This document shows positions 42,350-52,653 of a stretch of DNA of 53,091 nt, in pieces (the stretch's first letter is position 1; the number at the start of each line of letters is the position of its first letter). Under the pieces are notes generated by a model. The model was not told the DNA's origin and made no database searches. It saw only the letters and a program-made list of their open reading frames with translations. The DNA comes from a virus, in the IMG/VR virus record IMGVR_UViG_3300021963_000167, positions 1 through 53,091 of that record; one strand, written 5' to 3'. The translations under genes were made by a program, and so were the position numbers.

Positions 42350-42526
42350 TCAGTTAGAAGTGAGACGGAAGATTGTGTTGATTTTTGCATCAATCGAATC
42401 TGCAATCTCAGACTCTTCATCACCATAATCGGCATAATCTTTCAGTGCGGAACTGATAGCGTCCCACTCTGCATCTGTGAAGAGTTGGCGATAGATGGAA
42501 GCGGAGAGGTTTTGGTTGGTGTTCAT
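42350..42526 (-). CDS. Hypothetical protein, 58 aa, linker-led
   Basis: ATG 42524-42526 directly abuts linker copy 1; TGA 42350-42352. The product starts MNTNQNLSASIYRQLFTDAE and is acidic and helical (DYADYGDEESEIADSIDAK). No Shine-Dalgarno sequence, as with all linker-led genes. Confidence 0.7.
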   Translation of the reverse strand: MNTNQNLSASIYRQLFTDAEWDAISSALKDYADYGDEESEIADSIDAKINTIFRLTSN

Positions 42527-42554
42527 ACTACTGATGCACTTTCAGGGGCCCAGT
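42527..42554 (-). repeat. 28-nt intergenic linker, copy 1
   Basis: Exact consensus copy. On the minus strand it starts ACTGGGCCCC, has GAAAGTG in the middle and ends CAGTAGT directly before the ATG of the 58-aa gene. Flanks make a perfect 7-bp stem ACTACTG/CAGTAGT here. Confidence 0.95.
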
Positions 42555-42558
42555 AGTG

Positions 42559-42735
42559 TTAACTCAGACGGTCTTCGATATCATTGAGAACTGCAGCTAT
42601 GACCTCTGTGCTATCCTCACCGTTCTCCTCTAGTTGTTGCATTACGTCTTGCAACTGTGGTAGAATTGCGGTGACGATTTCAGGCACCCGAATCATCACT
42701 CCACTGCCCAAATTCTTATACTTTAGGGGTCTCAT
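42559..42735 (-). CDS. Hypothetical protein, 58 aa, behind a 17-bp inverted repeat
   Basis: ATG 42733-42735, TAA 42559-42561. The product starts MRPLKYKNLGSGVMIRVPEI and contains QLQDVMQQLEENGEDSTEVI, a likely helix. Not related to homing endonucleases. The ATG stands with no spacing after a perfect 17-bp inverted repeat whose loop holds a late-like promoter, so translation from longer transcripts could be blocked. Function unknown. Confidence 0.7.
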   Translation of the reverse strand: MRPLKYKNLGSGVMIRVPEIVTAILPQLQDVMQQLEENGEDSTEVIAAVLNDIEDRLS

Positions 42736-42787
42736 AGTTTTGATAGCATAACTGGGGGTATTTATGGGGGGTTATGCTATCAAAACT
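42736..42787 (-). promoter_or_regulatory. 17-bp inverted repeat with late-like promoter in loop
   Basis: AGTTTTGATAGCATAAC (minus strand 42787-42771) is perfectly complementary to the arm 42752-42736, with an 18-nt loop CCCCCATAAATACCCCCA. The loop holds CATAAATA, seven of eight late-promoter bases. The second arm ends exactly at the ATG of the 58-aa gene. Confidence 0.8.
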
Positions 42788-42799
42788 CAAAGTGCTGTT

Positions 42800-43257: not shown

Positions 43258-43293
43258 TACTTAAGTCAGAAAATGCACACTTAAGTATAAATA
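43258..43293 (+). promoter_or_regulatory. Inverted repeat overlapping a late promoter, before GIY-YIG gene
   Basis: TACTTAAGT (43258-43266) pairs with ACTTAAGTA (43279-43287); the second arm runs into TATAAATA (43286-43293), an exact late octamer on the plus strand, 26 nt before the GIY-YIG ATG. Confidence 0.65.
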
Positions 43294-43319
43294 ACACAGG
43301 TATATTTTTTACGTTTTTG

Positions 43320-44336
43320 ATGGCATATATTTACTCAATCACCAACCTTGAAAGTAACAAACTCTATGTGGGTAAGACTAGCAAACCTAACCCCTATGAT
43401 AGATGGAAACAACATCTACAATTAGCAAGGAGTTTCAATAACTTACAAGAAAACAATTCTGCTCTCTCTATGCCTATACTTCGTGCTATCAGTAAATACG
43501 GAGCAGACAACTTTAAGTTTAGAGTGATTGAAGAATGTGATGATGATAAAGTAAATGAACGTGAAATGTATTGGATACAAAAACTAGAAGCAAATGGTAA
43601 GAATGGTTATAACATAACATTAGGTGGTGAAGGTATAAAGAAACCAAAAAAGTATTGGTCTAATCATCCTCATTCCAAAGCAGTAAGTTGTTATACATTA
43701 GAAGGTGAATGGATTAAAGACTATGAGAGTATAGGATTAGCAGTAGATGATGTAAGTGAAAAGAAAAAAGGTGGTCCCATTCGTGCTTGCATTAAGGGTA
43801 CAACATTTCAAGCATTTGGTTATAGGTGGAGTTGGAAAGGTGAGGAACTTAAGTTAATTGAAAAAAGAGTAAATGTTCGTGGTAATGTATATGGTATCAA
43901 TCCAACATTAGGACAAAAAAAGATGTGGAAGTCGATGGCAGATGCAGCAGAAGAAATAACTGGAAATCGTAAGAATAATGCAACTATTTCATACTCTTTA
44001 TGCAGTCCCAATCATAACAAATACCACGCTTATGATTGGTATTTTTTTAGAACAAAACCTACAAAATGGAAGGCAGCGGAGCATAAAGGATTTACAACTG
44101 AAAGTGCAAAGAAAGCAGGTAAAATAAGTGCAGAAAAAACTAAAAAACCTGTCTATGGAGTAAGTATTACAACGGGTGAAATTGTAGAGTTTGATAGCAT
44201 ATTAGCAGCTTCATATTTTATTAAAGGTGATGGAAATAAAAACGGAGTTGCTAACATTTGGAGTAACATTCAACGTATAAAGAACGGGCAAACTTGGTGT
44301 TATGCTTTTGGTTACAGATGGTATGAGAAGCAATAA
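43320..44336 (+). CDS. GIY-YIG homing endonuclease with C-terminal repeats
   Basis: 338 aa from ATG 43320-43322; a TTG three bases upstream is in frame but not needed. The N-terminal GIY-YIG nuclease shows AYIYSITN, KLYVGKTS, the Arg in YDRWKQHL and the Glu in NEREMYWIQKLEANG near residue 80. The rest holds three related DNA-binding-type units of NUMOD1 appearance: CYTLEGEWIKDYESIGLAV...FGYRWSW near 123-175 (first 19 shown), NVYGINPTLGQ near 190, and VYGVSITTGEIVEFDSILAA...FGYRWYEK near 279-337. Such free-standing genes cut sites in related genomes lacking them and spread by repair. It runs against the surrounding genes. Late promoter and inverted repeat precede it. Confidence 0.9.
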   Translation: MAYIYSITNLESNKLYVGKTSKPNPYDRWKQHLQLARSFNNLQENNSALSMPILRAISKYGADNFKFRVIEECDDDKVNEREMYWIQKLEANGKNGYNITLGGEGIKKPKKYWSNHPHSKAVSCYTLEGEWIKDYESIGLAVDDVSEKKKGGPIRACIKGTTFQAFGYRWSWKGEELKLIEKRVNVRGNVYGINPTLGQKKMWKSMADAAEEITGNRKNNATISYSLCSPNHNKYHAYDWYFFRTKPTKWKAAEHKGFTTESAKKAGKISAEKTKKPVYGVSITTGEIVEFDSILAASYFIKGDGNKNGVANIWSNIQRIKNGQTWCYAFGYRWYEKQ

Positions 44337-50441: not shown

Positions 50442-50600
50442 TCAGTTGGTAGGTTCAGTAATCCAAATTGCACGATCAGTTCCCATAGTAAACTGATTGT
50501 CCCAAATGAAATGAGTTGCTTGCTGATTGCTCATCTGAAACTCACTCATCAGAAAGTTGAGTGCCTCTTTGAAACTTTGGAAGCGGTGTGTGGTTCTCAT
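50442..50600 (-). CDS. Hypothetical protein, 52 aa, linker-led
   Basis: ATG 50598-50600 abuts linker copy 8, TGA 50442-50444. Starts MRTTHRFQSFKEALNFLMSE and ends TDRAIWITEPTN. Function unknown. Confidence 0.65.
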   Translation of the reverse strand: MRTTHRFQSFKEALNFLMSEFQMSNQQATHFIWDNQFTMGTDRAIWITEPTN

Positions 50601-50628
50601 ACTACTGATGCACTTTGAGGGGCCCAGT
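50601..50628 (-). repeat. 28-nt intergenic linker, copy 8
   Basis: One change from consensus (CTCAAAG instead of CTGAAAG in the middle, shared with copy 10). It abuts the TGA of the 70-aa gene and the ATG of the 52-aa gene, filling the whole gap. Confidence 0.95.
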
Positions 50629-50841
50629 TCAATTCATAGCAAGAACAAGATTAGCAACACGATTTTCAGGCACGAAATCCTGAAGTTTATCATAAATCAG
50701 TTGAAATTGATCTACCATATTTTCATAATAAACTGCAAGATGTGGATCAGAAACCATTTGTGCCTTAAGTTGGAGACTATCCATAATGTCCAGGATTTCG
50801 CCAGAGGTGAATGAAATTTGCGTCATTTCAGTTGTGCTCAT
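50629..50841 (-). CDS. Hypothetical protein, 70 aa, linker-led
   Basis: ATG 50839-50841 abuts linker copy 9; codon 6 is ATG in an AAATGAC context (MSTTEMTQIS), as in the 85-aa gene, so either start may be used. Contains SGEILDIMDSLQLKAQMVSD and LIYDKLQDFVPENRVANLV. Linkers on both sides make it a cassette. Confidence 0.7.
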   Translation of the reverse strand: MSTTEMTQISFTSGEILDIMDSLQLKAQMVSDPHLAVYYENMVDQFQLIYDKLQDFVPENRVANLVLAMN

Positions 50842-50869
50842 ACTATAGGGACACTTTCAGGGGCCCAAT
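50842..50869 (-). repeat. 28-nt intergenic linker, copy 9 (divergent)
   Basis: The most changed copy: six differences, clustered in the CTGATG part (TATAGGGA instead) and one at the outer end. GGGCCCC and GAAAGTG are kept. It is the only copy next to a homing endonuclease gene 3' end. Confidence 0.9.
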
Positions 50870-50877
50870 TTCAATCA

Positions 50878-51378
50878 TTAACGAATAAGACGATAACCTT
50901 TACAAGGCATCTGTGGATTTCTCAAGGATCTTAACATATTTCCTGATGATTTAAGACCTAAAACTTCACGACACCATTTTGTAAGATTTGTAACTTCAAT
51001 GGTTTCTCCCGTTGGTGTTTCAATAAGTCGCGTTTTTGCTTGTGAATATGCTACATTATCAGCATTACTCATCCATTCCAAGTTCTCAACCCTGTTATCA
51101 GTTTTATCCTCATTGATGTGATTAACTGTATCATAGTTGTGAGGATTTGGAATGTAAGTTTCTGCTACTAATCTATGAATACTTGTACTTTTCATTCTAT
51201 CGGTATTTTGTTCCAGAATGATTGTTAAATAACCTTTACGATTTGGTTGTGGTTTTAGTTCTCTTTTGTATGAATAATCAAGAACTTTTCCTTTACCATT
51301 TCCTCCAGATTTTTTGTGTGAGAATACTCTACCATCAGGTGTGATGGAGTATTCGGGATAGTTTGGAATGAGTTTCAT
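50878..51378 (-). CDS. HNH homing endonuclease (NUMOD4-HNH)
   Basis: 166 aa. Residues 3-20 PNYPEYSITPDGRVFSHKK match the NUMOD4 element. The HNH part shows HRLVAETYIPNP (first His near 69), VNHINEDKTDNRVENLEW (His and Asn near 85-100). A C-terminal unit TPTGETIEVTNLTKWCREVL and MPCKGYRLIR resembles a NUMOD1-type DNA-binding helix. Free-standing genes of this type cut related DNA and spread. A late promoter inside a 12-bp inverted repeat stands directly upstream. Confidence 0.92.
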   Translation of the reverse strand: MKLIPNYPEYSITPDGRVFSHKKSGGNGKGKVLDYSYKRELKPQPNRKGYLTIILEQNTDRMKSTSIHRLVAETYIPNPHNYDTVNHINEDKTDNRVENLEWMSNADNVAYSQAKTRLIETPTGETIEVTNLTKWCREVLGLKSSGNMLRSLRNPQMPCKGYRLIR

Positions 51379-51381
51379 AAC

Positions 51382-51429
51382 TGATTGGAAGTGATTTATC
51401 TCTATTTATAAGTATAACACTTCCAATCA
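51382..51429 (-). promoter_or_regulatory. 12-bp inverted repeat enclosing a late promoter
   Basis: TGATTGGAAGTG (minus 51429-51418) pairs perfectly with CACTTCCAATCA (51393-51382). The exact late octamer TATAAATA lies in the loop at 51403-51410. The second arm ends 3 nt before the ATG of the HNH gene. Confidence 0.85.
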
Positions 51430-51435
51430 CATTAG

Positions 51436-51879
51436 TCAACGTTTGTATAAGTATCCTCCACACCAAGTTGCATTTTCCAGCAACCATTCACGATCTTTGA
51501 TCAATCGCAGATCATAACGAACACCTTTCGCAGGAGATTTCCACGATGCAGACTTATACACTTCTCCAGTATTCTTATCCACAAAAGCGTGAACGGAACG
51601 GGCAATGTGACGCTCAGGACCATTATCAATCACCATAATGATTTTGTGATACTTTTTACCACTTTCAATCACATAAGAATAGTTACATTCACCATTCTTC
51701 AGTTTAGCAATACAATTCTCGTGATAATCTGTATTGTCTCCATTAGACAGAGAACGATAATGAGACTTGATGATATAATCAATAAAGTTTTGACGAAGTG
51801 CTTCACATAGTGCTTGCGTATGACGCAGAACACTATCACAAATTGTTTCTTGTGCTTGTTGTTGAAGAGTTGCAGTCAT
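51436..51879 (-). CDS. Hypothetical protein, 147 aa, linker-led
   Basis: ATG 51877-51879 lies 15 nt after linker copy 10 (ATC variant). Starts MTATLQQQAQETICDSVLRH; the middle IESGKKYHKIIMVIDNGPER is followed by HIARSVHAFVDKNTGEVYKS and ASWKSPAKGVRYDLRL. The pattern of strands with a conserved HAFVDKNTG.VYK is one I recall from cyanophages, of unknown function. Confidence 0.75.
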   Translation of the reverse strand: MTATLQQQAQETICDSVLRHTQALCEALRQNFIDYIIKSHYRSLSNGDNTDYHENCIAKLKNGECNYSYVIESGKKYHKIIMVIDNGPERHIARSVHAFVDKNTGEVYKSASWKSPAKGVRYDLRLIKDREWLLENATWCGGYLYKR

Positions 51880-51894
51880 TTTCTTTGTTCTGAT

Positions 51895-51922
51895 ACTACT
51901 GATGCACTTTGAGGGGCCCAGT
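51895..51922 (-). repeat. 28-nt intergenic linker, copy 10
   Basis: Same single change as copy 8. Flanks allow ACTG/CAGT plus TGATA/TATCA pairing. Followed by ATC rather than ATG. Confidence 0.95.
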
Positions 51923-51947
51923 TATCAACCCCAACTAAATAATGTGC

Positions 51948-52023
51948 CTAAGTGGGTGGTACTTCTCAGGCGGGGACACTAGAAATAGTGTCCCTTATAA
52001 ATAATACTACCACCCAAACTTAG
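51948..52023 (+). promoter_or_regulatory. Nested inverted repeats with a late promoter, before GIY-YIG gene
   Basis: Outer arms CTAAG-TGGGTGGTA (51948-51961) and TACCACCCA-aa-CTTAG (52008-52023) enclose a perfect hairpin GGGACACTA-gaaa-TAGTGTCCC (51973-51994) and the exact late octamer TATAAATA (51996-52003). The outer arm ends 9 nt before the ATG of the GIY-YIG gene. Confidence 0.85.
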
Positions 52024-52032
52024 AGTAGAACT

Positions 52033-52653
52033 ATGACGAACCTTAACAGGTTTTATACTTACGCTTACTTGCGTGAAGATAGGACACCTTACTATATTGG
52101 TAAGGGAACCAGAGATAGAATATTTGCTAATAATAGAGTGACTAAGAAACCAAAAGATAAATCTAAAATAATCTTCCTTAAACAAAATCTAACTGAAGAT
52201 GAGGCATTTAAGCACGAAATCTATATGATTGATGTCTTTGGTAGAAAAGATTTAGGAACTGGTATTCTTCACAATAGAACTAATGGTGGTGAGGGTAGTT
52301 CTGGTTTTACACATAGTGAAGAAACTAAGAATAAAATGAGTCAAACTCGTAAGGGTAAAGTTCCATCTGAGGAAACAAGAAACAAAATAGGAGAACGACA
52401 GAAAGGTAAAGTTATACCAGAATATCAAAAAAATAAAATAAGTCAATCACACAAAGGAAAAAAACACTCCGAAGAAACAAAAAAGAAAATGAGCGAGATG
52501 CGTAAAGGAAGAACCTTATCAGATGAACATAAGAAGAAATTAAGCGAAAGTCGTAAAGGAATACAATACTCCGAGGAAACTAAAAAGAAAATGAGTGAAG
52601 CAAGAAAAGGAAAAACTCCCTGGAATAAAGGAAAATCTATGCCCAAGATTTAG
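52033..52653 (+). CDS. GIY-YIG homing endonuclease with NUMOD3 repeats
   Basis: 206 aa. The nuclease domain shows FYTYAYLRED, PYYIGKGTRDRIF with its Arg, and the Glu in KHEIYMIDVFG near residue 62, then NRTNGGEGSSG. Residues 95-206 carry six NUMOD3-type units, each about 17 residues (for example HSEETKKKMSEMRKG, SDEHKKKLSESRKG), then TPWNKGK. The repeats bind DNA in the minor groove in Seg/Hef-type endonucleases. It runs against its neighbours and overlaps the next minus-strand gene by 17 bases at the 3' end. Confidence 0.93.
   Translation: MTNLNRFYTYAYLREDRTPYYIGKGTRDRIFANNRVTKKPKDKSKIIFLKQNLTEDEAFKHEIYMIDVFGRKDLGTGILHNRTNGGEGSSGFTHSEETKNKMSQTRKGKVPSEETRNKIGERQKGKVIPEYQKNKISQSHKGKKHSEETKKKMSEMRKGRTLSDEHKKKLSESRKGIQYSEETKKKMSEARKGKTPWNKGKSMPKI

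Follow-up and report, generated by a model that had tools for sequence, protein, structure and literature searches.

A leader ahead of a cyanophage homing endonuclease gene, one copy of a widespread RNA cassette, appears to hold the nuclease off until late in infection

Homing endonucleases need to avoid damage to their own genome, and the locus described here raises the question of how the 76 nucleotides ahead of one such gene might control it. The window, by which we mean the whole stretch of DNA analysed (53,091 nucleotides, IMG/VR record IMGVR_UViG_3300021963_000167), belongs to a T4-like cyanophage, in which portal, tail sheath, terminase and baseplate genes were recognised. The late promoter of cyanomyoviruses has been described, with the consensus NATAAATA in S-PM2 (PMC2984593). 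In the window, NATAAATA motifs lie 17 to 33 nt ahead of the portal, sheath, baseplate and other structural genes, which indicates that this phage has T4-like late promoters. The gene behind the leader encodes a nuclease with NUMOD repeats, as expected of a homing endonuclease: the 206-aa protein matches NUMOD3 (1.9e-25) and a PHROG homing endonuclease family (6.9e-23). Empty insertion sites were seen at the loci of relatives only, not for the window copy. The features of the locus are the following.

51934-51941 (+): P_up, a late-promoter-like motif, ACTAAATA; predicted RNA start at about 51946-51947
51946-51949 (+): 5' strand of stem S1, GCCT
51948-51952 (+): outer part of the 5' arm of stem S2, CTAAG, pairing with CTTAG at 52019-52023
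51953-51961 (+): 5' arm of S2, TGGGTGGTA, forming 9 bp with TACCACCCA
51968-51971 (+): 3' strand of S1, AGGC, pairing with GCCT
51973-51994 (+): inner hairpin of 9 bp with the loop GAAA, GGGACACTA (51973-51981) and TAGTGTCCC (51986-51994)
51996-52003 (+): P_down, a late promoter octamer, TATAAATA; predicted +1 at about 52009
52008-52016 (+): 3' arm of S2, TACCACCCA, beginning where the late mRNA is predicted to start
52019-52023 (+): outer part of the 3' arm of S2, CTTAG, entering the presumed weak ribosome-binding region (TTAGAGTAG)
52033-52653 (+): GIY-YIG-like homing endonuclease gene with NUMOD3 motifs, 206 aa

The first-pass annotation had described nested inverted repeats around a late octamer, with an outer stem of 9 + 5 bp that ends 9 nt before the ATG. 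Every one of these elements is exact and lies where it was placed: TGGGTGGTA and TACCACCCA form the 9 bp, CTAAG and CTTAG the other 5, and the structure ends at 52023 with the ATG at 52033. P_up and both strands of S1 had been missed. P_up is recognised because NATAAATA or NCTAAATA stands at the same offset ahead of S1 in 174 relatives. The leader (51948-52023) has a minimum free energy of -33.6 kcal/mol (z -5.47), and none of 200 shuffled sequences folded as well. The octamer alone is not significant, with 4 copies in the window against 8 expected by chance, but the combination of an octamer, exact 9-bp arms around it and an ATG shortly downstream is found 3 times against 0.05 expected in order-1 Markov simulations. 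Three of the four copies of TATAAATA in the window lie ahead of homing endonucleases. Neither the window nor any of about 20 relatives gave a relevant match to the Rfam 15 covariance models. As the 5' strand of S1 overlaps the outer end of the 5' arm of S2, the two stems compete, and together they form either an H-type pseudoknot or a two-state switch.

It had also been suggested that the GAAA hairpin acts as a barrier between converging transcription units. The hairpin is strong (9-10 bp, rich in G+C) and T runs are present in its relatives, which would suit such a role. However, the genes that flank it diverge: the left neighbour starts at 51879 on the minus strand and the nuclease gene at 52033 on the plus strand, and the convergent junction lies instead at the 3' end of the nuclease gene, where it meets its right neighbour (52653/52637). 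In addition, only TT follows the hairpin in the window, whereas a run of at least four T's is found in 142 of the 174 relatives, so the window copy is no canonical terminator. The barrier was rejected on gene order, and we find it hardly credible.

A search for the leader in other phages, which the first-pass annotation had proposed, yielded 174 full relatives with a conserved layout, here called class A. Eighty viral loci were collected with the nuclease as query and more with leader DNA patterns, and a descriptor scan in which P_up was not required returned 230 distinct modules, including the 174 of class A. Their order is P_up, S1, the 5' arm of S2, the inner hairpin (usually with its T run), P_down, the 3' arm of S2 and the start codon. 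P_up in class A is NATAAATA or NCTAAATA, with A or C always as the second base, and the only modules of the descriptor scan that lacked it were class B forms, two near-variants and spurious hits; as the loci were partly collected with patterns containing the promoters, the frequencies of P_up and P_down hold for this class rather than for nucleases in general. In most relatives the 3' arm of S2 starts 4-5 nt past the octamer and therefore at the expected start of a T4-type late RNA. The MAFFT alignment is poor over the inner hairpin. A pattern made of the two promoters only found about 100 cassettes in 64 whole records, and the reversed pattern only a handful. Among 29 such promoter-only hits, 24 have a helix of at least 8 bp (4.3% by chance), and nearly all lie ahead of nuclease-like ORFs. 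Our literature search found no description of this arrangement. The leader is one copy of a widespread, apparently undescribed regulatory cassette. The class B leaders (GGGCAGCAACT...AGTTGCGTAAGTCCC; loci L036, L034, L053, L083, L190 and others) have a loop that pairs with a sequence ending at the start codon. They have no P_up, and in some copies a TATAAT overlaps the late motif.

The proteins encoded after class A leaders include NUMOD3 and GIY-YIG nucleases, several HNH types, endonuclease VII-like proteins and families without a Pfam match. Two of the latter (families MTSQSPRIYTYKITFEE... and KEYHYVYYSYEEYGRGYIGSR..., at L277:3488-4270, L191:6559-7344 and relatives) are probably unrecognised GIY-YIG-like nucleases. 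Several NUMOD3 nucleases are labelled 'translation initiation factor 2' (MW015081.1 at 62515, 51291 and 192466; MN695335.1 at 41542; PV340852.1 at 156271). The cultured phage S-SRM01 has six cassettes, all ahead of nuclease or unannotated genes, and two of its annotated gene starts lie inside the leader. Empty sites were located for 25 cassettes, and in 21 of the 25 there is no TAAATA at the junction, which indicates that P_up arrived with the element; for these 21 cases the idea that the insertion site itself had supplied P_up was rejected. Among the insertions with a clear neighbour, 123 of 143 are between codirectional genes, and the TAA of TAAATA is often reused as the stop codon of the preceding gene. 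At the level of sequence, these comparisons establish the anatomy of the cassette, its conservation, its association with nucleases and the position of P_up within the insert.

The covariation of the arms, likewise read from the alignments, indicates that they pair as RNA. In an alignment of 44 leaders, the covariation of S2 was 0.503 against 0.169 for shuffled pairings (0 of 500 as high), and pairings slid along the alignment reached at most 0.155. The helix is present in 217 of 228 leaders picked by the two promoter motifs alone, and about 70 distinct arm types have remained complementary. When an S2 helix has a single internal pair that is not Watson-Crick, this pair is G-U in 38 distinct helices and A-C in none; many of the G-U cases share one position (CUG against UAG beside the ribosome site) and are therefore not all independent. 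Even so, the complete absence of A-C points to pairing as RNA, on the sense strand. S1 covaries as well, scoring 7.03 with its own strands against 5.53 with swapped strands and 5.85 for the best of 500 shuffles. Moreover, the 5' strand of S1 is complementary to the ribosome-site region (own 3.49, swapped 2.60, shuffle maximum 2.84), which suggests that S1 and an extended S2 are the two states of a switch.

These results bear on two other explanations of the arms. The inverted repeat could function as DNA, as an operator through which the nuclease represses itself, as a cruciform or as part of the homing site. There is a precedent, as I-TevI binds an operator that overlaps its own late promoter (PMC2988022), and here too the promoter is flanked by the arms. 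A repeat acting as DNA would not be expected to show the G-U over A-C signature, and on this result it was rejected. Its arms are also about 45-60 nt apart, and one arm type is found before unrelated nucleases while related nucleases have different arms. We consider a function as DNA distinctly unlikely. Alternatively, the pairing of the arms could be incidental, the element simply bringing a late promoter that serves it and the following gene, together with a terminator against read-through. Most copies do have a terminator-like hairpin and two late promoters, and the prevalence of insertions between codirectional genes fits this. It would leave unexplained why so many arm types stay complementary, why the exceptions are G-U but never A-C and why covariation is about three times that of shuffled pairings. 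This explanation is already disfavoured, and we regard it as very unlikely.

We propose a late-only switch, in which the leader would form the left-hand control region of a homing endonuclease element that is mobile and free-standing. In an RNA that contains the 5' arm, either by read-through or because it started at P_up, this arm would pair with its 3' partner, which lies directly ahead of the start codon, and ribosomes would be unable to load. Late in infection, the late sigma system of the phage would initiate at P_down, so that the RNA starts precisely with the 3' arm; this mRNA, lacking the 5' arm, would be translated. Since S1 and the extended arm share a strand, the leader may refold as RNA polymerase advances, and where a T run follows the inner hairpin, as in most relatives, RNA coming from the left may also be halted. 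P_down lies between the arms, and the predicted late RNA lacks the 5' arm, as in switches of the T4 type. We infer the activity of the promoters, their timing and the block in translation from this arrangement.

Computed energies agree with this proposal. The first-pass annotation held that transcripts reading in from the left would fold the whole leader and that late transcripts would start past the hairpin. For the window leader, the computed cost of opening the ribosome site is 6.3 kcal/mol in the long RNA and 1.4 kcal/mol in the late RNA. Together with the conserved compensatory changes, this supports the view that the ribosome site would be hidden in long transcripts and accessible in late ones. 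In 93 relatives the median cost is 12.2 kcal/mol in the P_up RNA against 3.0 in the P_down RNA and 4.9 with a shuffled upstream part, and the long RNA exceeds the short one by at least 2 kcal/mol in 91 of the 93; the S2 arms of these relatives were picked by complementarity, so the comparison gives an effect size and is not independent evidence of pairing. The weight for pairing rests on the covariation and on the G-U results. Some observations speak against the late switch. The ribosome-binding sequence of the window copy is weak and lies only partly inside the helix, and the difference of 4.9 kcal/mol in opening cost is below the family median. In addition, there is no plus-strand gene directly to the left that would feed RNA into the leader, which leaves the cassette's own P_up as the obvious source of left-hand RNA. 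Finally, the homing endonuclease gene at 43317-44336 (+) has TATAAATA ahead of it yet no sequestration of its ribosome site (3.9 vs 4.6). Taken together, the sequence of the leader suggests that the nuclease is held silent until late in infection, and we consider the late-only switch as a whole to be a likely explanation.

The window contains a simpler version of the switch on the other strand.

51418-51429 (-): 5' arm of the HNH leader, TGATTGGAAGTG
51403-51410 (-): late octamer of the HNH leader, TATAAATA, between the arms
51382-51393 (-): 3' arm of the HNH leader, CACTTCCAATCA, ending 3 nt before the HNH ATG
50878-51378 (-): HNH/NUMOD4 homing endonuclease gene, 166 aa

Here, a 12-bp arm pair surrounds TATAAATA and the opening cost is 15.0 vs 3.5 kcal/mol. 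The same design of a late promoter in a hairpin is seen at 42733-42790 (-), where a perfect inverted repeat (17 bp by scan) around CCCCCATAAATACCCCC lies immediately ahead of the ATG of a 58-aa ORF that is not nuclease-like. At 43260-43336 (+), ahead of the homing endonuclease gene at 43317-44336, the TATAAATA copy at 43286 is overlapped by a 10-bp repeat, ATACTTAAGT/ACTTAAGTAT. Another leader, GGGCCCCTCAAAGTGCATCAGTAGTATG, recurs before small minus-strand genes, near 50596-50630, 50838-50870, 51888-51921 and 42520-42560 (-).

It is possible that the cassette goes one step further and that the P_up RNA, terminated at about 50 nt, also works in trans, as an antisense RNA directed at the late mRNA. 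In IS10, a short hairpin RNA, RNA-OUT, which is transcribed from the opposite strand, has a loop complementary to the 5' end of the mRNA for the mobile element's nuclease. The cassette could, as its main product, make a comparable RNA that limits the nuclease. This RNA would consist of the S1 hairpin, whose loop displays the S2 arm, followed by the terminator hairpin, and would pair with the P_down mRNA at its 5' end. Both the complementarity and the P_up motif are present in the sequence; an antisense arrangement on the opposite strand is not found, since P_up and the arm lie upstream on the same strand. P_up is nearly invariant in class A, has a fixed spacing to S1 and is part of the insert, and S1 covaries although sequestration in cis has no need of it. 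The T run before P_down in most relatives would end an RNA with a predicted median length of 56 nt, and the duplex of this RNA with its mRNA is computed at -21.2 kcal/mol against about -12 for swapped pairs. In the window, P_up is also the obvious source of left-hand RNA. On the other hand, sequestration in cis uses the identical pairing, class B and the simple forms have no P_up, and the window copy has only TT after its hairpin. Trans action would also predict arms that are orthogonal within a genome, but the arms are no more different than expected: 2 of 106 pairs within genomes are identical against 1.4 expected (1.3% between genomes). That an antisense RNA is the main product of the leader is a tentative prediction, to which we give somewhat less than even chances. 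The same holds for the wider prediction that each mobile nuclease carries, beyond the cis switch, a same-strand, sequence-matched RNA repressor, with about 70 pairing types.

The matched changes in the arms point to selection on pairing. Whereas the solutions in T4 look individual, cyanophages have one portable RNA control unit common to unrelated nuclease families. The cassette may serve as a sequence tag for spotting uncharacterised mobile nucleases. The natural pairing types are a ready set, and S-SRM01, which is cultured, could be the phage in which to look for a nuclease-borne antisense RNA.

The core logic of the late-only switch is already known; the architecture and the mobility are new. 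In the leaders of T4 I-TevI, I-TevII, I-TevIII and segB, a late promoter lies inside an RNA structure that sequesters the ribosome-binding site (PMC2988022, PMC3014915). Like I-TevI, the cassette precedes a homing endonuclease gene, its long RNA is predicted to hide the ribosome site and its late RNA would lack the 5' arm. Unlike I-TevI, it adds a second late promoter upstream, a competing stem and a terminator-like hairpin in the loop, and it is portable between unrelated nucleases that are mostly free-standing. The mobE gene of Aeromonas phage Aeh1 (Gibb and Edgell), which we know through reviews, encodes a free-standing HNH homing endonuclease with an RNA that sequesters the ribosome-binding site (PMC2988022). 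The HNH gene of the window (50878-51378) resembles this simple form, and the unit of P_up, S1 and terminator is not described for mobE in these reviews. In the T4 gene e (lysozyme) and soc leaders, too, a late promoter is flanked by the two arms of an inhibitory hairpin (PMC3014915), as in the cassette, but these are genes of the host phage and not mobile elements. In IS10, RNA-IN and RNA-OUT provide antisense control of the transposase (PMC5006887); unlike RNA-OUT, the complementary RNA predicted for the cassette would come from the same strand, upstream. The CfrI antisense RNA of cyanophage S-PM2, about 225 nt long, is a true antisense over psbA and a nuclease gene (PMC2984593), so that there, too, a T4-like cyanophage links RNA regulation with a homing endonuclease, although the layout differs. 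By analogy with these systems, the cassette is the strategy of T4 I-TevI and mobE in a more elaborate and portable form.
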